Source: Bacteroidales bacterium (lineage in GTDB: Bacteria; Bacteroidota; Bacteroidia; Bacteroidales; UBA932). From it: DNA of 64,000 bases. Position 1 is the stretch's first letter; the number at the start of each line of letters is the position of its first letter. Under the pieces are notes generated by a model. That model ran no database searches, was not told the DNA's origin, and saw only the letters and a program-made list of their open reading frames with translations. Where the stretch lies: NCBI GenBank assembly GCA_017561265.1, contig JAFZDJ010000003.1, forward strand, positions 62,001-126,000, given 5' to 3'. The position numbers and the translations under genes are program-made. Shown here one piece after another: positions 24,788-32,295 of the stretch.

Positions 24788-26080
24788 ATGAAGAATTTTG
24801 TAGAAGAACTCAGGTGGAGAGGCATGATCCAGGACATCATGCCGGGAACAGAAGAGAAGCTTATGGAAGGATCGACTGCGGCTTATGTCGGTATCGACCC
24901 TACAGCTGATTCGCTCCACATCGGCCATATGGTCAGCATCATGATCCTCAAGCATTTCCAGAACTGCGGCCACAAGCCTATCGCCCTCGTAGGAGGTGCT
25001 ACCGGTATGATCGGAGACCCATCGATGAAGTCTCAGGAGCGTAATCTCCTCGACGAGGCTACACTCAACCACAACGTGGCATGCATCAAGGCTCAGCTCA
25101 GCAAGTTCCTCGACTTCGAGTCAGAGGCAGAGAACAAGGCAGAGCTCGTGAACAACTACGACTGGATGAAGAACTTCACATTCCTCGACTTCGCACGTGA
25201 GATCGGAAAACATATCACTGTGAACTACATGATGGCCAAGGATTCAGTGAAGAAGAGACTCTCAGGCGAGGCTCGCGACGGTATGTCATTCACAGAGTTC
25301 ACATACCAGCTCCTTCAGGGATACGACTTCCTTTACCTCTATGAGCACAAGGGATGTACACTCCAGATGGGTGGTGCAGACCAGTGGGGAAACATCACTA
25401 CAGGTTCGGAGCTCATCCGCCGTATCCTCGGAAAGGAGGCATTCGCACTCACATGTCCTCTCATCACAAAGGCTGACGGAGGTAAGTTCGGAAAGACTGA
25501 GAAGGGAAACATCTGGCTCGATCCTGAGCGCACTTCCCCATACCAGTTCTACCAGTTCTGGCTCAATGTATCTGATTCAGACGCAGAGAAGTACATCAAG
25601 ATCTTCACAATGCTCAGCAAGGAGGAGATCGATGCGGCTATCGCACAGCACGCAGAGGCTCCAGAACGCAGAGAGCTCCAGAAGCTCCTCGCAAAGGAGG
25701 TTACCACAATGGTTCATGGAGCAGCAGAGTATGAGAATGCTGTAGCTGCTTCGCAGATGCTCTTCGGCAACGCGACAAAGGATGCACTTATGAATCTTGA
25801 CGAGAAGACATTCCTTGCAGTGTTCGACGGCGTGCCTACATTCGAGATTGCAGCCGAGAAGTTCCCTATCCCTGTCATCGAGCTCCTCGCAGGTGAGTCA
25901 CAGGTATTCCCTTCAAAGGGAGAATGCCGCAAGATGATCCAGGCGAACGGTGTGAGCATCAATAAGGAGAAGGTAGCTGACATCAACGCACAGATCGGTG
26001 AGGAGTCATTCATCAATGGCAAGTACATTCTTGCTCAGAAGGGTAAGAAGAACTACTTTATCATTAAAGTTGTCAGATAA
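24788..26080 (+). CDS. tyrS: tyrosyl-tRNA synthetase
   Basis: A 430-residue class I synthetase. The ATP motifs are HIGH (residues 44-47) and KFGKT (233-237, the TyrRS form of KMSKS). The tyrosine pocket segments [15 protein letters not shown] and [11 protein letters not shown] are intact. A C-terminal S4 RNA-binding domain (about 360-430) ends the protein. TACCTTTG at 24742-24749 is the likely -7 promoter box. rbfA follows 35 bases downstream. Confidence 0.97.
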
Positions 26081-26115
26081 TTCTGATAAGATGATGATTA
26101 AAACATACGACGCAA

Positions 26116-26466
26116 ATGGAAAAGAATATTGAAAGCACCAGGCAGCTGAAGGTTGCCAAGGAGATTCAGAAGCACATGGCGGAGATCATCCGCAGCAAGG
26201 GCATGGCCGCATTCGGTGGCGCTCTCGTGTCTGTCAGCGGTGTGAAGATCAGCCCTGATCTTTCTGTGGCAAAGATCTATGTGAGCGTATTTCCTTCCGA
26301 CAAGGCTGAGGCTGTCATGGGAGCTCTTGAGGAGAACGCAAGACCTCTTCGTGGAGAGCTCGGCAGCAAGGTAGGAAAGCAGCTACGCATTGTGCCGGAA
26401 ATCATTTTCTATCTTGACAGTTCTCTTGATTATGTAGAACATATTGAAGAATTGCTTAAAAAGTAG
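26116..26466 (+). CDS. rbfA: ribosome-binding factor A
   Basis: A 116-residue KH-like protein that matures the 16S rRNA 5' end and helps cold adaptation. Family features include RQLKVAKEIQKHMAEIIRSKG, VSGVKISPDLSVAKIYVSVFP and the ending LDSSLDYVEHIEELLKK. Its last coding bases and stop form the first bases of the left arm of a 21-base perfect inverted repeat. Confidence 0.93.
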   Translation: MEKNIESTRQLKVAKEIQKHMAEIIRSKGMAAFGGALVSVSGVKISPDLSVAKIYVSVFPSDKAEAVMGALEENARPLRGELGSKVGKQLRIVPEIIFYLDSSLDYVEHIEELLKK

Positions 26467-26568
26467 CAAAATTGCATAGTGATTCCGAAGACCCCCGTCC
26501 TCCCTATGGTCGGACACCCCCTAGCCGGGGGTGGCATGTCTTTCTCCATCACTATGCAATTTTGCTAC
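26463..26568. repeat. long inverted repeat with 21-base perfect arms
   Basis: The arms 26463-26483 and 26548-26568 are exact reverse complements and begin GTAGCAAAATTGC. The left arm includes the rbfA stop codon. The centre is C-rich on the plus strand with a nested CCCCCG/CGGGGG stem. It ends 19 bases before the start of the permease gene. It may terminate rbfA transcription. Confidence 0.85.
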
Positions 26569-26587
26569 AGACCGACGAATAACAGTC

Positions 26588-27802
26588 ATGAGATTGGCAC
26601 CGTTCATAGCAGGCAGATATCTTTTCGCCAAGAAGTCACATAACGTGATCAATATAATTTCGGCGATAAGTGCCATAGGCATGGCTATAGGAACAGCCGC
26701 CCTCATCATAATACTATCGGTTTATAACGGGTTCGACACGCTTGTCAGGTCTATGATGAGCAATGTCGAGCCCGATCTTATGATCACACCTGCCACAGGA
26801 AAGGTCTTTGTTCCCGATGGTGAGGCATACGACTGGATCTATGACCAGCCTTCCGTAAAGAACATGTGCGGTGTGCTTCAGGAACAGGTCTTCATAAGCT
26901 ATGACGGCCAGCAGGGCATCGCGAAGGCAAAGGGAGTGGACTGGATATACGAGGATGAAAGCCCTTTGCGCGATCACATCATCGAAGGAGAGTTCAAGCT
27001 TCATAGAGGAGATGTACCCTTGGCATCCGTCGGAAGCGGCCTGGCCTACAGCATGGGAATCAATCCACGCTTCCTCTCCCCTATCGAAATATACTTTCCT
27101 GCCAGGACAAGAAAGCTGTCCATGAGCAATCCTCTCTCATCGATAGAGGCCATAAAGGTGTGGCCTGGCAGCACATTCTCGATAAGCAACGATATCGATG
27201 CCGAGCTGATGCTCATTCCTATCGAGGAAATGCGCGAGCTTCTTGAATACAAGGATGAGGTTTCGGCTGTGGAGATAAGGCTTACCGAAGATGCGGATAA
27301 AGACGAACTTAAAAGGCTCCAGAAGGAGATTTCCTCAAGGCTTGGCCCGGACTTCAGGGTCAAGGACCGCTTCCAGCAGAACGAATCGCTTTACAAGATG
27401 ATGAAATATGAAAAGGCTGCGATATTCATGATTCTGATATTCGTGATCATCATAATCGCATTCAACATATTCGGAAGCCTTTCCATGCTCATAATCGAGA
27501 AGCGTCCGGATATTGCAACCTTGCGCAGCCTCGGAGCGCAGGAAAGCCTCATCAGACGCATATTCATCCTCGAAGGATGGTTCATATCGCTCGCAGGACT
27601 TGTTGCCGGCCTGATTGTCGGAACAGGCTTCGCCCTTCTACAGCAGCACTTCGGATTCATAAAAATGCCCGGACATTTCGTTGTCCAGGCATATCCCGTG
27701 ATCCTTTCATGGTCCGACATCCTCCTTACCGCAGCAGGAGTCGCATCCATAGGATATATCATTGCACTTCTTCCCGTGGCATCATTCTACAAAAAGAGGT
27801 AA
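26588..27802 (+). CDS. LolC/LolE-type ABC transporter permease (FtsX domain)
   Basis: A 404-residue inner-membrane protein with four membrane segments (about 21-43, 280-305, 335-360, 370-392) and a large periplasmic domain after the first. N-terminal IAGRYLFAKKSHNVINIISAIS matches lipoprotein-releasing permeases, and EKRPDIATLRSLGAQ is the FtsX coupling region. It should work with an ATPase (LolD-like) not present here to move lipoproteins to the outer membrane. The start at 26588 is preferred since upstream codons lie in the inverted repeat. It ends 3 bases from a convergent gene. Confidence 0.88.
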   Translation: MRLAPFIAGRYLFAKKSHNVINIISAISAIGMAIGTAALIIILSVYNGFDTLVRSMMSNVEPDLMITPATGKVFVPDGEAYDWIYDQPSVKNMCGVLQEQVFISYDGQQGIAKAKGVDWIYEDESPLRDHIIEGEFKLHRGDVPLASVGSGLAYSMGINPRFLSPIEIYFPARTRKLSMSNPLSSIEAIKVWPGSTFSISNDIDAELMLIPIEEMRELLEYKDEVSAVEIRLTEDADKDELKRLQKEISSRLGPDFRVKDRFQQNESLYKMMKYEKAAIFMILIFVIIIIAFNIFGSLSMLIIEKRPDIATLRSLGAQESLIRRIFILEGWFISLAGLVAGLIVGTGFALLQQHFGFIKMPGHFVVQAYPVILSWSDILLTAAGVASIGYIIALLPVASFYKKR

Positions 27803-27805
27803 GAG

Positions 27806-28306
27806 CTACATTCCGGCCTTATCCTTATTCTCGTATGAGGCATATGGAGTACCATATTCCGGAGTAACTTCTCCGTTCACCATACTGACATCGACGCCGA
27901 AAGCGGCAAATACTCCGTCATACCAGCGTCCGTCTCCTTCTTCCTGCTGTTTCAGGTTGACTGACTTCTGCGTTGTGATGTACCATCCTCCGTTTTCACC
28001 CTTGTCGACATCAAAGTACTTCACTTCAATTTCTGCTCTTGGCAAGAATTCTCCGCGAAGTTCGTAACTGCCGTCCGACGAAGTGTATACGGTATCCTTA
28101 GGCCATTCATCAGGAGCGGTAACGGCAATACCTCTGACAGGCCTGCCACTTTCATCTGTAACCTTTCCGCTGACAATATAATCGGCATGAGGCACACCAT
28201 ATTCCGGCGCCGGAACAGGTTCATTATCATCAAGACAGGCAGAAACCGCCGATATTCCAAGAATACCAAGAAGCATCCTGCATAAATTCAATAAGGTATC
28301 CTTCAT
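27806..28306 (-). CDS. radical SAM-associated lipoprotein with EYGxP motif at both ends
   Basis: A 166-residue lipoprotein (lipobox VSAC, Cys24). EYGVPH (35-40) lies shortly after the lipidated Cys and EYGTPY (150-155) close to the C-terminus, followed by a Lys/Asp-rich tail. Between them is a single carboxypeptidase-regulatory-like beta domain (IVSGKVTDESGRPVRGIAV). It resembles the TIGR04134 group of lipoproteins found beside radical SAM proteins. Its N-terminus is similar to the other lipoprotein of the operon. It is the third gene, 32 bases after the radical SAM gene. Function unknown; it is a plausible substrate of the enzyme. Confidence 0.82.
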   Translation of the reverse strand: MKDTLLNLCRMLLGILGISAVSACLDDNEPVPAPEYGVPHADYIVSGKVTDESGRPVRGIAVTAPDEWPKDTVYTSSDGSYELRGEFLPRAEIEVKYFDVDKGENGGWYITTQKSVNLKQQEEGDGRWYDGVFAAFGVDVSMVNGEVTPEYGTPYASYENKDKAGM

Positions 28307-28337
28307 AGCAATATGACTTTTACATGTTGTATTTCAC

Positions 28338-29405
28338 TCATCTTATCCTGTCCAGATGACAGAGAATAAGATTTCCATCATCATCGCGCAGATGCATTCC
28401 GTTGCCTTCGCAATAGCGGAACCATTTGCAGTCTCCGCACTGGTCCTTCTTCATCCAGGAGCGGTCGCGATACGGCTGGAAGCGGTTCTCCCATACATCG
28501 ATGAAATCATCCTTGTATATGTTTCCCTGATGATAATCCGCGCGGATACTGCCGCATGCGGATATCGATCCGTCTATCAGCACAGAGGCGATGGATGTTC
28601 CGGCCTGACATGTGTACAGATGATCCCTGACCTCTCCCTCGAACTCTCCGAGGAAACCTTCGCATCCGTAGCTGACATGTATCCTGCCCTCCTTGCGGGT
28701 CTTCTGAATGAATTCCATGAGACCGCGGAAACCTTCCCTGCTGAGCTGAAGTTCCGGATCCTGCGCAGCTCGTCCTACCGGGAACACAGTAAAGATGCGC
28801 CAGCTCTTGAGTCCCTGACTGATCAGGTATTCCTTGAACTCCTCAAGAGAATCATAATTCCTATTGTTGGCGCATGTCACCACATCAAACTTTATCGAAG
28901 GTTCCTTAGCCAGGATCTCCACAGCCTTGGAAGCATATTTGAAACCGTCCGGAACGCCTCGCATCCAGTTGTGCTGATCTTCAAATCCGTCAAGACTGAT
29001 CGTAGCCGAATGCATTCCTGAAGCCAGAAGCTGGTCGATCTTCTTCGGAGTCATCAGACGTCCGTTGGACACCATGCCCCATGGAAACTCGAGATCATAT
29101 ATCTCACGTCCGCACTTGAGCAGATCCTCTCTCATCAGAGGCTCTCCTCCTGAGATGATGACCATGATCTTGTGCGAATCATATTTCTCCTTTATCCTTA
29201 CAAGCACATTGCGGAAATCCTCGAAAGGCATATCCGGATGTAAGGACGAGACCTTGCAGTCACTGCCGCAATGACGGCATTTCATATTGCACCTCAGGGT
29301 ACTTTCCCAAAACAGCTGGCGAAGGGGATGCTTCTCTTGCATATCCTTCACCAGCTGTCTGTGCAGCTCAAGCGCTATGCGCTGCTTTATAGATATTCCT
29401 GACAT
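28338..29405 (-). CDS. radical SAM/SPASM enzyme of a lipoprotein-linked operon
   Basis: A 355-residue enzyme with the radical SAM cluster motif C39-x3-C43-x2-C46 (TLRCNMKCRHCGS), the GGEPL motif and a C-terminal SPASM-type Cys set (CQAGTS, SACGS, CGDCKWFRYCEG, LCH) for auxiliary Fe-S clusters. SPASM enzymes usually modify peptides or proteins. It resembles the TIGR04133 group, whose role is unknown to me. The ATG at 29405 overlaps the upstream lipoprotein stop by one base (TGATG); a GTG one codon earlier is possible. It sits between two lipoprotein genes that share a motif. Confidence 0.88.
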   Translation of the reverse strand: MSGISIKQRIALELHRQLVKDMQEKHPLRQLFWESTLRCNMKCRHCGSDCKVSSLHPDMPFEDFRNVLVRIKEKYDSHKIMVIISGGEPLMREDLLKCGREIYDLEFPWGMVSNGRLMTPKKIDQLLASGMHSATISLDGFEDQHNWMRGVPDGFKYASKAVEILAKEPSIKFDVVTCANNRNYDSLEEFKEYLISQGLKSWRIFTVFPVGRAAQDPELQLSREGFRGLMEFIQKTRKEGRIHVSYGCEGFLGEFEGEVRDHLYTCQAGTSIASVLIDGSISACGSIRADYHQGNIYKDDFIDVWENRFQPYRDRSWMKKDQCGDCKWFRYCEGNGMHLRDDDGNLILCHLDRIR

Positions 29406-29887
29406 CACTTCACACGTTCAAGTTCCAAAGTCACATCCGTACCATATATTCCGCCGCACCAATGATCGTCAGGATCAGGCTCCCCTATCTTTTTCAGATC
29501 AATCACATAAGTCGTATCCTTATAGTGACCTTTGCTTTGCGAGTCATAGTCTGAAAGCTTCAGAATCATCTTTTCCGGATCTTGCGGGGTATGGATTCGC
29601 CCCACCATCCACAACTCGCTGTAATCTGCGACATATGATCCTTCCGGATAGAAGTCGGTCACCTTGTTTCCCTCCGCATCCCAATGCGAGTGCTCGTCAC
29701 CATAAACTATGACGATTCCTGAAACAGGCTCCTTGGTGTCCTTGTCGATAAGCTTGCCGGTAATTTCGAAACGGGTATACGGCGTTCCATACTCAGCCAT
29801 CATTCCACCGTCACATGAAGCACCGATAGCAGTAATGCCCATAAGAGCAAGGAGTCTTCCGAGGACTCTGATGAAGAGATCTTTCAT
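29405..29887 (-). CDS. radical SAM-associated lipoprotein, first gene of the operon
   Basis: A 160-residue lipoprotein (lipobox GASC, Cys25) with EYGTPY at 32-37 and a beta domain beginning RFEITGKLIDKDTKEPVSGIVIVYGDE. The start is set at the ATG at 29887, which gives a proper signal peptide (MKDLFIRVLGRLLALMGITAI); an in-frame extension upstream lacks signal features. The N-terminal 25 residues resemble those of the lipoprotein at the other end of the operon. Only one EYGxP motif is present here. Translation is coupled to the radical SAM gene. Confidence 0.82.
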   Translation of the reverse strand: MKDLFIRVLGRLLALMGITAIGASCDGGMMAEYGTPYTRFEITGKLIDKDTKEPVSGIVIVYGDEHSHWDAEGNKVTDFYPEGSYVADYSELWMVGRIHTPQDPEKMILKLSDYDSQSKGHYKDTTYVIDLKKIGEPDPDDHWCGGIYGTDVTLELERVK

Positions 29888-29908
29888 GATTTCAAAATTT
29901 AAAACATT

Positions 29909-29939
29909 CAAACTTAATGAAAAACTGCATGATTTCCAA
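29909..29939 (-). promoter_or_regulatory. promoter of the radical SAM-lipoprotein operon
   Basis: On the minus strand TTGG (29936-29939) and TAAGTTTG (29909-29916) are 19 bases apart. The -7 box is an exact TAnnTTTG match, and the -33 box differs at one base. It lies 22 bases upstream of the ATG at 29887, giving a very short leader. Confidence 0.55.
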
Positions 29940-29990
29940 GACAGTCTCCATATAGATGCACATTTCATCTGATCCGTTGCATCGGAGTAT

Positions 29991-30021
29991 AAAAAAAGGG
30001 AACGATTTTTCAACCGTTCCC
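29991..30021 (-). terminator. intrinsic terminator after nfnB
   Basis: On the minus strand the 7-base stem GGGAACG/CGTTCCC with a 10-base loop is followed directly by seven Ts. It lies 25 bases past the nfnB stop and closes the metal/NfnAB transcription unit. Confidence 0.82.
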
Positions 30022-30046
30022 CATCAGATCATATATTATTCCACTA

Positions 30047-31432
30047 CTATTTGTTCTGAACATATTCATGGATGGCAGCCGCGGCCTTTCGTCCGGCACC
30101 CATGGCCAGAATCACAGTCGCTGCTCCTGTAACAGCATCACCTCCGGCAAATACGCCAGGACGGGTTGTCGCACCATTTTCATCAGCTACCAGACATCCG
30201 CGACGATTGGTCTCAAGACCGGATGTAGTCTTTGCAATCAGAGGATTAGGAGATGTTCCGAGAGACATGATCACAGTCTCTGTCTCGATCTCAAACTCCG
30301 AACCAGGCACTGCCACAGGGCTTCTACGGCCGCTCTCATCAGGCTCTCCAAGCTCCATGCGGATACATTTCACAGCCTTCACCCAGCCTTTCTCGTCACC
30401 TATGATCTCGATAGGGTTGGTAAGCATTGCGAACTCGATGCCCTCCTCCTTTGCATGATGAACCTCTTCACGACGAGCAGGAAGCTCTGTCTCGGTACGA
30501 CGATATACGATTGTAGTCTCTGCGCCAAGTCTGAGGGCTGTACGTGCGGCATCCATAGCCACATTACCGCCGCCGACTACAACGACCTTCTTTCCGGCAT
30601 GGATTGGAGTCATGTAATCGTCCCTGTAAGCCTTCATGAGGTTGTTTCGTGTAAGGAACTCATTTGCAGAGAATACGCCGTTGAGATTCTCACCAGGGAT
30701 GCCCATGAACTTAGGAAGTCCAGCTCCGGAACCTACGAATACTGCCGCAAATCCTTCCTCGTCAAGAAGAGAGTCAATAGTGACTGTCCTTCCGGCAATC
30801 ACGTTTGTCTCGATCTTCACCCCGAGAGCCTTCACTGACTCGATCTCGGCCGCAACGACCTTATCCTTCGGAAGACGGAACTCCGGAATACCATATTCAA
30901 GCACTCCTCCCGGACGGTGGAGAGCCTCGAAGATAGTCACCTCATATCCGAGCTTCGCGAGGTCAGATGCACATGCAAGGCCTGCTGGGCCACTTCCGAT
31001 CACAGCAATCTTATGGCCGTTTGCCGGAGCTATCTCAGGCTTCACGCCACCGTTCTCACGGCTCCAGTCAGCCACGAAACGCTCAAGCTTTCCGATTGCG
31101 ACAGGCTCGCCTTTGACACCGAGGATACAGCGTCCCTCACACTGTGTCTCCTGAGGACATACGCGTCCGCAGATTGCAGGAAGCGATGAATCTTCAGCAA
31201 TGACTGCTGCAGCAGCGGCAAAATTACCCGCAGCAACCTGAGCAATGAAATGAGGAATCTTGACGCTTACAGGGCAGGCAGCGACACAACGCGGATTCTT
31301 GCAATGAAGACATCTTGTAGCCTCCAGCTGAGCTTCCTCTGCATTATATCCGTAGCATACCTCCTCGAAGTTGGTTGCACGGACTTTAGGATCCTGCTCT
31401 CTTACAGGTACTCTTGGAATCTTGTTTGCCAT
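30047..31432 (-). CDS. nfnB: NfnB / glutamate synthase small-chain-like NADPH oxidoreductase
   Basis: A 461-residue flavoprotein of the GltD/NfnB type. Eight Cys near the N-terminus (41, 44, 49, 53 and 88, 92, 98, 102) fit two 4Fe-4S clusters. An FAD motif (GSGPAGLACASDLAKLG) and an NADPH motif (VVGGGNVAMDAARTALRLGA) follow. Standing next to the FAD/2Fe-2S subunit and without a glutamate synthase large chain nearby, it is best read as the large subunit of the electron-bifurcating NADH-dependent ferredoxin:NADP oxidoreductase. Its ATG overlaps the nfnA stop by one base. Confidence 0.87.
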   Translation of the reverse strand: MANKIPRVPVREQDPKVRATNFEEVCYGYNAEEAQLEATRCLHCKNPRCVAACPVSVKIPHFIAQVAAGNFAAAAAVIAEDSSLPAICGRVCPQETQCEGRCILGVKGEPVAIGKLERFVADWSRENGGVKPEIAPANGHKIAVIGSGPAGLACASDLAKLGYEVTIFEALHRPGGVLEYGIPEFRLPKDKVVAAEIESVKALGVKIETNVIAGRTVTIDSLLDEEGFAAVFVGSGAGLPKFMGIPGENLNGVFSANEFLTRNNLMKAYRDDYMTPIHAGKKVVVVGGGNVAMDAARTALRLGAETTIVYRRTETELPARREEVHHAKEEGIEFAMLTNPIEIIGDEKGWVKAVKCIRMELGEPDESGRRSPVAVPGSEFEIETETVIMSLGTSPNPLIAKTTSGLETNRRGCLVADENGATTRPGVFAGGDAVTGAATVILAMGAGRKAAAAIHEYVQNK

Positions 31433-32295
31433 TACTTTCCCCTCCCTATTCTGCATTTGTGATGTTCGTTAGCCTCAACCTCTTCCGACTTGTACATACC
31501 CTGACGACGCATGGCTTCGTCAAAGTCAACATCATAACCATTGAACTCAGGGCCTTCCACGCATGCAAAGCGTGTCTTTCCAGCCACTGTCACACGGCAA
31601 GCACCGCACATTCCTGTACCGTCCACCATCAATGTGTTCAGGCTGACGATGATAGGAAGTTCAAGCTTCCTGGCTGTAAGAGTCGCGAACTTCATCATTA
31701 TCATAGGTCCGATGGCTACAGCCTGAGTATACTTCTTACCATCCTCGTTGACAAGCTTCTCGAGCATTGCTGTCACAAGACCCTTGAATCCTGCCGAACC
31801 GTCGTCTGTACAGAGGTAGAGATTGTCGCATACAGCTTCCATCTCCTCCTTGTAGATAACAAGGTCCTTGGTCTTTGCACCTACGATGACATCGACAGCC
31901 ACTCCTCTTTCATGGAGCCACTTAACCTGCGGATATACAGGGGCTGTGCCGACACCTCCGGCAATGAAGATATATCTCTGGCCCTTGAGCTCCTCCTCCG
32001 ACATTTCAGTAAAGTCAGACGGGATGCCGAGAGGTCCGACAACATCCCTGAAGGACTCTCCTTCTTCGAATGAGATGATTTCTGACGATGAAGCACCGAT
32101 CTGCTGGGTCACGATTGTGACTGTACCGGCCTCCTTGTCATAGTCACTGATAGTGAGCGGAATACGCTCTCCGTTTTCAGTTGCGCGCACGATGAGGAAC
32201 TGTCCGGGAAGGGCTGCAGCCGCAAGACGCGGAGCCTCTACCTTCATGCGACAGATCGTCGGCGTGAGCATTTCTTTGGTTATGATCCTATACAT
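31432..32295 (-). CDS. nfnA: NfnA / dihydroorotate dehydrogenase K-like electron transfer subunit
   Basis: A 287-residue FAD/NAD-binding protein of the ferredoxin reductase fold (LPGQFLIVRA; PLTISDYD; IFIAGGVGTAPVYPQ). C230 and C233 (MCGACRV) and C245 (FACVEGPEF) fit a 2Fe-2S site. With NfnB downstream it should form the NfnAB complex that couples NADH, NADPH and ferredoxin pools in the cytoplasm. PyrK is the main alternative, but no pyrD is nearby. It starts 9 bases after the HMA protein gene, suggesting a shared mRNA. Confidence 0.87.
   Translation of the reverse strand: MYRIITKEMLTPTICRMKVEAPRLAAAALPGQFLIVRATENGERIPLTISDYDKEAGTVTIVTQQIGASSSEIISFEEGESFRDVVGPLGIPSDFTEMSEEELKGQRYIFIAGGVGTAPVYPQVKWLHERGVAVDVIVGAKTKDLVIYKEEMEAVCDNLYLCTDDGSAGFKGLVTAMLEKLVNEDGKKYTQAVAIGPMIMMKFATLTARKLELPIIVSLNTLMVDGTGMCGACRVTVAGKTRFACVEGPEFNGYDVDFDEAMRRQGMYKSEEVEANEHHKCRIGRGK

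Follow-up and report, generated by a model that had tools for sequence, protein, structure and literature searches.

A unit of three genes on the minus strand of a 64,000-nucleotide (nt) stretch from a Bacteroidales bacterium (GenBank assembly GCA_017561265.1, contig JAFZDJ010000003.1, positions 62,001 to 126,000; this whole stretch is called the window) encodes, in transcription order, a lipoprotein (lipoprotein 1), a radical S-adenosylmethionine (SAM)/SPASM enzyme and a second lipoprotein (lipoprotein 2; whole unit 27806-29887). Comparison with related loci suggests that the enzyme very probably modifies a YGxP motif in its own partner lipoproteins, because the motif follows the enzyme, occurs in several protein backgrounds, and has no competitor in the form of another recurrent neighbour. 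The pairing of TIGR04133 enzymes with TIGR04134 lipoproteins is already known to annotators, and source names speak of an 'rSAM/lipoprotein system'. The present comparison adds the motif as the link between the two, the other backgrounds that carry it, and the partners that are not lipoproteins. Literature searches, confined to one library of papers, found no paper naming TIGR04133 or TIGR04134 and nothing on a radical-SAM-modified lipoprotein product; graspetide loci with SPASM enzymes, some of them with lipoproteins, have been described, and the parts of that source that were examined contain nothing on TIGR04133 (PMC8939145).

Lipoprotein 1 (29405-29887, minus strand; 160 amino acids [aa], ATG at 29887, stop at 29405) and lipoprotein 2 (27806-28306, minus strand; 166 aa, one apparently TTR-like domain) are the putative substrates. 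The ATG of the enzyme gene (28338-29405, minus strand; 355 aa, ATG at 29405, stop at 28338) has one base in common with the lipoprotein 1 stop (TGATG), GTG at 29408 being an alternative start, and 31 nt separate it from lipoprotein 2. All three proteins score above the curated cut-offs, the enzyme with 561.7 bits against 425 for TIGR04133, and lipoproteins 2 and 1 with 90.9 and 57.8 bits against 39.8 for TIGR04134, and the enzyme is flanked on both sides by TIGR04134 lipoproteins, the pairing that TIGR04133 calls for. In these respects the comparison agrees with an earlier reading of the sequence alone (the original prediction), which had described three minus-strand genes with a one-base overlap and had named these families as covering such pairs. 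It had also placed the motif correctly: both lipoproteins begin with MKD, the lipobox Cys is residue 25 in lipoprotein 1 (signal peptide MKDLFIRVLGRLLALMGITAIGAS followed by C) and residue 24 in lipoprotein 2, and EYGTPY starts 7 residues after the Cys in the former and EYGVPH 11 residues after it in the latter. The EYGTP of lipoprotein 1 (residues 32-36; 29780-29794, minus strand) is a putative modification site, and the first motif of lipoprotein 2 is EYGVP (residues 35-39; 28190-28204, minus strand). Overlooked in that inventory was an extra copy, EYGTPYASY, at the C-terminus of lipoprotein 2 (EYGTP at 27845-27859, minus strand), with which EYG occurs three times in the two proteins.

How closely does the motif keep to the enzyme? 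A search for the enzyme in genome contigs gave 41 loci, a whole-genome search found it in 3 of 395 genomes sampled across the phylum (with G002, the centre genome, counted in), and 82 of 344 genomes in an order-level sample match TIGR04133 at E <= 1e-70, 74 of them above the cut-off. Two named strains, of Parabacteroides distasonis and Phocaeicola massiliensis (TSDC17.2-1.1), have the enzyme family, the lipoprotein of the former reading CEYGSPH, and a plasmid search gave two records. The stretches examined number 142 (the window, L001-L041 and L120-L219), and 137 of them hold an enzyme open reading frame (ORF; phmmer E <= 1e-60), L040, L041, L187, L188 and L190 being excluded; counts of these loci are not independent, as L037 and L137 share a contig, L027 and L193 likewise, and others are close relatives. 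YGxP is present in 118 of the 137 enzyme loci, in 114 by script and in four by eye (L008, L145, L147, L165). Lipoprotein-type genes are the sole strongly recurrent neighbour family (105/137 loci); among frames of 70 aa or more within 2.5 kb no other family occurs in more than 10 of the 137.

Distance from the enzyme sharpens this picture, in counts that use six-frame ORFs and whose denominators include many non-genes. On the enzyme strand, signal-peptide-like ORFs carry YGxP in 126 of 258 cases within 300 nt, in 27 of 243 at 300-1500 nt (some gltD-like false positives included) and in 3 of 579 from 1.5 kb onwards, and on the opposite strand in 2 of 814. For lipobox ORFs on the enzyme strand with YGxP at most 80 residues from the Cys the figures are 123/170 at less than 500 nt, 18/60 at 500-1500 nt, 2/43 at 1500-3000 nt and 0/54 beyond, with 0/122 on the opposite strand. 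Seven of those 18 are gltD-like false positives, having a pseudo-lipobox (CASDL or CATDL) and EYGIPEF and lying 538-1105 nt from the enzyme (window, L002, L003, L004, L010, L015 and L019), which leaves 11 others. The gltD-like rows were dropped from the counts of X and from the conservation and locus tallies; they are still in the 500-1500 nt lipobox bin and the 300-1500 nt signal-peptide bin.

Genomes without the enzyme point the same way. A phylum-wide search gave 29 TIGR04134 matches for examination. All 28 from enzyme-free genomes are without YGxP, 27 of these being below the TIGR04134 cut-off, many large and only four flagged with a lipobox; the sole one above the cut-off is a lipoprotein (genome G129) and likewise has no motif. 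The 29th (L062) has YGxP and comes from a genome bearing the enzyme. Within genome G001 the motif is present in the lipoproteins at the enzyme locus and absent from two matches on another contig (L055, above the TIGR04134 cut-off, and L057, below it), in whose 3.4 kb stretch there is no enzyme. By these comparisons xYGxP follows the enzyme more than it follows the fold. The rule is not strictly local, to judge from genome G005, where L046 on contig 26, a TIGR04134 lipoprotein, carries EYGCP although its 3.4 kb stretch contains no enzyme; partners may be modified in trans as well, since two TIGR04133 enzymes are encoded on other contigs of G005.

The original prediction had named as a check an alignment of the lipoproteins with their homologues, and the lipoproteins pass it. 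The alignment comprises 117 of them (effective number 94), retrieved with a seed that begins downstream of the motif. Its top conservation score after the lipobox Cys belongs to the Tyr of the motif (0.95), the Gly scores 0.96 and the Pro 0.88, and YGxP is present in 101 of the 117. (In this run two seeds retrieved the same proteins, so one class shrank to a single sequence.) The E that had been taken as part of the motif did not hold: among 155 occurrences in 123 lipoproteins the residue before Tyr (X) is E in 45, C in 31, M in 24, V in 22, L in 10, K in 9, A in 8 and others in 6, and the core is xYGxP. These 123 come from 174 unique lipobox ORFs (enzyme strand, at most 1.5 kb away), of which 146 have YG, and their first motif lies at most 20 residues from the lipid Cys in 95. 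More than one site occurs in 43 loci, and X differs between sites in 30 of these; a few sites probably arose by chance. The signal peptides of motif lipoproteins may themselves be special, as [LFIVM]G[LFIVM] is found shortly upstream of the Cys in 72 of the 123 against 9 of 76 controls, a pattern picked after the sequences had been seen and counted in a set related by descent.

The motif also turns up in quite different proteins. In 30 of the 123 lipoproteins CYGxP begins directly at the lipid Cys. Some motif-bearing lipoproteins are very small, with the motif at times near the C-terminus (L037, L121, L211, L214), and others look helical by eye (L210, L213). Lipoprotein 2 of L001-L004 has two domains with EYGxP before each; the window's lipoprotein 2 stops after the second motif and is without the second domain, and a 94% identical protein, P0121, shares this short form. 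Exported proteins without a lipobox carry the motif after the signal peptide (AQYGAP in L124 and L134, AQYGVP in L132), and a signal-less protein beside the enzyme in L147 (2040-2351, minus strand) has three DDVEC(I/V)YGPPPG repeats. With such exported and signal-less forms the substrates probably reach beyond lipoproteins. The idea that the enzyme edits a motif of its own lipoproteins is thus well supported by the comparison, the motif being conserved and following the enzyme; what needed correction was the form of the motif and the restriction to lipoproteins. In L022 (5353-7065, plus strand) a lipoprotein with MYGVP and VYGVP and a TIGR04133 enzyme form one open frame, in a single metagenome-assembled genome and possibly by assembly error.

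Several observations weigh against a simple link between enzyme and motif. YG is entirely absent from 28 of the 174 lipobox ORFs in the enzyme's neighbourhood, these 28 being partly non-genes and partly lipoproteins that look real (for example beside L004, L023 and L186). Among the 137 loci, 10 have YG without xP when read by eye, three have the Gly replaced (MYATP in L007 and L018, CYAPAP in L186), and six (L006, L038, L123, L128, L153, L183) have no motif by eye, the contig stopping at or just upstream of the enzyme in L006, L038 and L183. Residues of the TTR domain are moreover as strikingly conserved as the motif (D 0.92, G 1.0, and W 0.98 where present).

Which reaction would the enzyme catalyze? 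The original prediction spoke of an unusual side chain or crosslink, which is too general: with xYG being the PlpX splice site and the accepted tags reading GYGLP, we tentatively put backbone tyramine excision of the splicease kind first, as the likeliest chemistry. One study describes how PlpXY spliceases cut tyramine out of XYG sites (natively MYG and LYG) with loss of 135.0757 Da, are independent of the leader of a ribosomally synthesized and post-translationally modified peptide (RiPP), and splice an affibody tagged with GGPIRPGYGLPI (PMC10533398). Another assigns PlpX to IPR026482 and gives it as partner PlpY, a truncated RiPP recognition element (RRE) protein (PMC11002830). X is variable in these systems, and several sites per substrate are possible (PMC10373908). 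The window's system and PlpXY agree in the xYG target, in the GYGLP of accepted tags, which is an xYGxP, and in the use of a SPASM enzyme. Tyramine excision is the best guess also because of the tolerance for X, the several sites per protein and the apparent kinship with enzymes that lie beside xYG proteins.

The likeness has its limits, and a number of points count against a splicease-type reaction. Of 16 tagged FtsZ constructs 14 were left unspliced by PlpXY, both with LYGLPI included, and the two that were spliced both had GYGLPI (PMC10533398). Because so few were accepted and LYGLPI was not, YGxP alone is clearly insufficient for PlpXY. The E that stands as X in the window is not among the named native PlpX sites. 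The window enzyme scores only 86.6 bits, against a cut-off of 725, on TIGR04103, which we take to be equivalent to the IPR026482 of PlpX, and nine other families, TIGR04133 included, score higher than TIGR04103. Among frames of 70 aa or more, no recurrent PlpY- or RRE-like gene lies within 2.5 kb of the enzyme. Finally, PlpXY substrates have nitrile-hydratase-like or Nif11 leaders whereas those of the window are exported lipoproteins; the two match no such leader model, only TIGR04134 and CarboxypepD_reg-type models. Since TIGR04103 score, PlpY partner and leader type all differ, we do not class the window enzyme as a PlpX-type splicease, but it probably works like one.

Among Bacteroidota, TIGR04103-like matches (E <= 1e-40) occur in 9 of 247 genomes, none above the cut-off, and 3 of 11 scanned loci have clear xYG motifs beside the enzyme, the other eight being unconvincing. 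In one of them a protein with six KYGYP repeats and no Pfam or NCBIfam match (L230:6449-7096, plus strand) lies beside a TIGR04103-like SPASM enzyme (L230:4956-6416) and is possibly a spliceotide-like precursor. In another a protein ending in LLYGTPPVPLYQAPSK, with LYGTPP, adjoins such an enzyme (L228:6122-6649, minus strand). A third case is a pair of DUF1843 peptides (L226:4328-4748, plus strand) that contain PYGVAV and LYGVGI and adjoin a TIGR04103/TIGR03913-like enzyme; DUF1843 could be a family of splice precursors. Unlike the partners of TIGR04133 enzymes, precursors adjoining these TIGR04103/TIGR03913-like enzymes were not found as lipoproteins, that of L226 being DUF1843.

For the TIGR04103-like enzymes of L226, L227, L228 and L230, TIGR04133 is the third-best NCBIfam model in three and the fourth in one. 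In a tree of 35 sequences the TIGR04133 enzymes (support 99/100) group with the TIGR04103-like set (91/75; union 97/95) to the exclusion of one AhbD-like and four anSME-like sequences, with long-branch warnings. The tree is sparse: searches for TIGR04545, TIGR04053, TIGR03942 and TIGR03913 gave 1, 0, 5 and 1 matches, its TIGR04103-like sequences include no authentic PlpX, and it omits L233 (an in-frame TGA, no open frame found) as well as L241 and L243 (the gene of L229). The TIGR04133 and TIGR04134 models themselves (rSAM_w_lipo and lipo_with_rSAM) describe the same gene pairing and have cut-offs that the window proteins pass; they are hypothetical equivalogs, and their names assign no chemistry.

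It is quite possible that the enzyme edits YGxP by another radical reaction, such as a C-C or ether crosslink of the Tyr, thioether formation with a Cys close by, or epimerisation or desaturation of Gly or X. The fold neighbours of the enzyme are in keeping with this. The enzyme matches PF04055 and PF13186 (the latter with 30.7 bits, cut-off 21.5), and in alignment A1 (74 relatives chosen from 105 references) C39, C43 and C46 of the CxxxCxxC motif and the SPASM cysteines C266, C284, C323, C326, C332 and C349 are invariant; by the cysteine pattern that we assume for SPASM domains, one usual Cys position is a Gly (G336, at least 90%). An AlphaFold2 (AF2) model with a predicted local distance difference test score (pLDDT) of 93.8 has as its top 12 fold matches 11 chains of the peptide-modifying SPASM enzymes SuiB, anSME, SkfB and PqqE, which also speaks for modification of the lipoproteins, plus a BlsE chain in eighth place, with DesII, ChlB, viperin and MoaA further down. 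SuiB, SkfB, PqqE and ChlB form crosslinks. They and anSME share the overall SPASM fold with the window enzyme; they differ from it in sequence (16-21% identity in structural alignments) and act on other targets with other chemistry. Such a reaction would also suit the partners in L007, L018 and L186, which retain the Tyr without the Gly, and the partial conservation of positions +5 to +7 after the Tyr (A, D, Y/F). Against it, X and the residue after the Pro vary, so that no fixed crosslink partner is evident, and the match to the GYGLP of accepted splice tags would have to be a coincidence.

Under the reading that we favour, modification of the lipoproteins by tyramine excision, the three genes would form a minimal protein-maturation unit. 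The cytoplasmic SPASM enzyme would recognise both prolipoproteins and modify the xYGxP tract downstream of the future lipid-anchored Cys, probably together with the C-terminal copy in lipoprotein 2. Editing would precede export, the modified lipoproteins being exported and lipidated afterwards, with the signal peptide possibly serving as a leader too. X would be kept and could vary while Tyr and Gly would be required, which matches the conservation pattern. Taken jointly, modification and the splicease-like reading appear to us evenly balanced between right and wrong. The exposed ketoamide could act by inhibiting proteases covalently, X being the P1 residue. Protease inhibition has been ascribed to spliceotide products (PMC11117315; PMC10373908). 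That the window's product inhibits proteases is nonetheless doubtful. The fullest version of the idea would make the lipoproteins of a large group of Bacteroidales membrane-anchored, diversifying covalent protease inhibitors, with an electrophilic alpha-keto-beta-amino acid left by tyramine excision, a P1 residue encoded in the gene, and a PlpY-free enzyme recognising whole proteins through signal peptide and YGxP; as a whole this is somewhat unlikely.

The enzyme family is common in the sampled order, and the name TIGR04133 gives it no function. If tyramine excision were true, these bacteria would routinely make proteins with edited backbones, which standard proteomics would miss, and the enzyme would be a splicease without a partner protein. 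If the chemistry differs, the enzyme would carry out a novel protein modification whose site is precisely predicted.

Could YGxP instead be a structural or sorting element of the lipoproteins, with the enzyme acting elsewhere? In the AF2 model of lipoprotein 2 (pLDDT 86.0) motif 1 lies in coil directly before the first strand (pLDDT of the block, 76), and across the lipoproteins the first motif is mostly near the lipid Cys, both of which would suit such a role; motif 2 lies in a low-confidence tail (about 52). The protein has weak fold matches to TTR-like and beta-sandwich domains (best E 5.9e-05), among them teneurins, dioxygenases, the carboxypeptidase D TTR domain and the SusC NTE domain, and scores 31.0 bits on PF13620 (Carboxypeptidase-regulatory-like), against a gathering threshold of 32.3. 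This explanation is improbable, since none of the TIGR04134 matches from enzyme-free genomes has YGxP, though only four of them were flagged with a lipobox, since other lipobox ORFs of the same loci lack it at 3 kb and beyond on the same strand and throughout the opposite strand, and since small proteins that lack the domain have the motif too, as do some C-termini and the signal-less repeat protein. As a lipoprotein-sorting signal, too, YGxP is unlikely, given the motif-free lipobox ORFs elsewhere and in the enzyme-free genomes. The structural comparison of lipoprotein 2 used alignment A3, 63 sequences chosen from 103 references (the 117 matches less 14 longer than 185 aa); it omits motif-less lipoproteins (beside L004, L023, L031, L181, L186 and L208) and most of the CYGxP kind, so that its invariant Tyr is partly due to selection and is no evidence of conservation, the fair count being that of the 117-protein alignment. 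Its TTR-like domain has a frequent D-x-D-x-x-x-N-G stretch that resembles a metal-binding loop.

That the enzyme makes a small molecule which the lipoproteins bind or carry is very improbable: BlsE chains, of a small-molecule enzyme, do lead the PDB matches by sequence (before SkfB, SuiB and anSME), a point against the reading that we favour, and the best NCBIfam scores after TIGR04133 are those of TIGR04053, AhbD and NirJ2, but no other gene family recurs beside the enzyme in more than 10 of the 137 loci and the motif follows it across several protein backgrounds.

The unit is flanked by a gltD-like gene and a LolCE/FtsX-type permease gene. Because gltD-like genes occur near the enzyme in about 10 of the 137 loci, this neighbour probably lies outside the unit and reflects the synteny shared by close relatives. 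Between it and the three genes a hairpin scan found a terminator-like hairpin (29997-30022, minus strand; 7 terminator-like sites in the scanned region against 1.6 expected). Upstream of lipoprotein 1, TAAGTTTG (29909-29916, minus strand) matches TAxxTTTG, presumably the Bacteroidota promoter consensus, and is a possible -7 element; TAxxTTTG occurs 38 times in the window, where 24.6 occurrences would be expected, and the longer TTTG-spacer-TAxxTTTG pattern has no match at this element. The original prediction had given the unit a promoter of its own; the gene order stands, and with hairpin and TAAGTTTG together its own transcription is plausible. An Rfam search of 26000-32000 gave no match. 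Over the whole window TTTG-N16-22-TAnnTTTG has 8 matches where 0.62 would be expected, which is consistent with a Bacteroidota chromosome.

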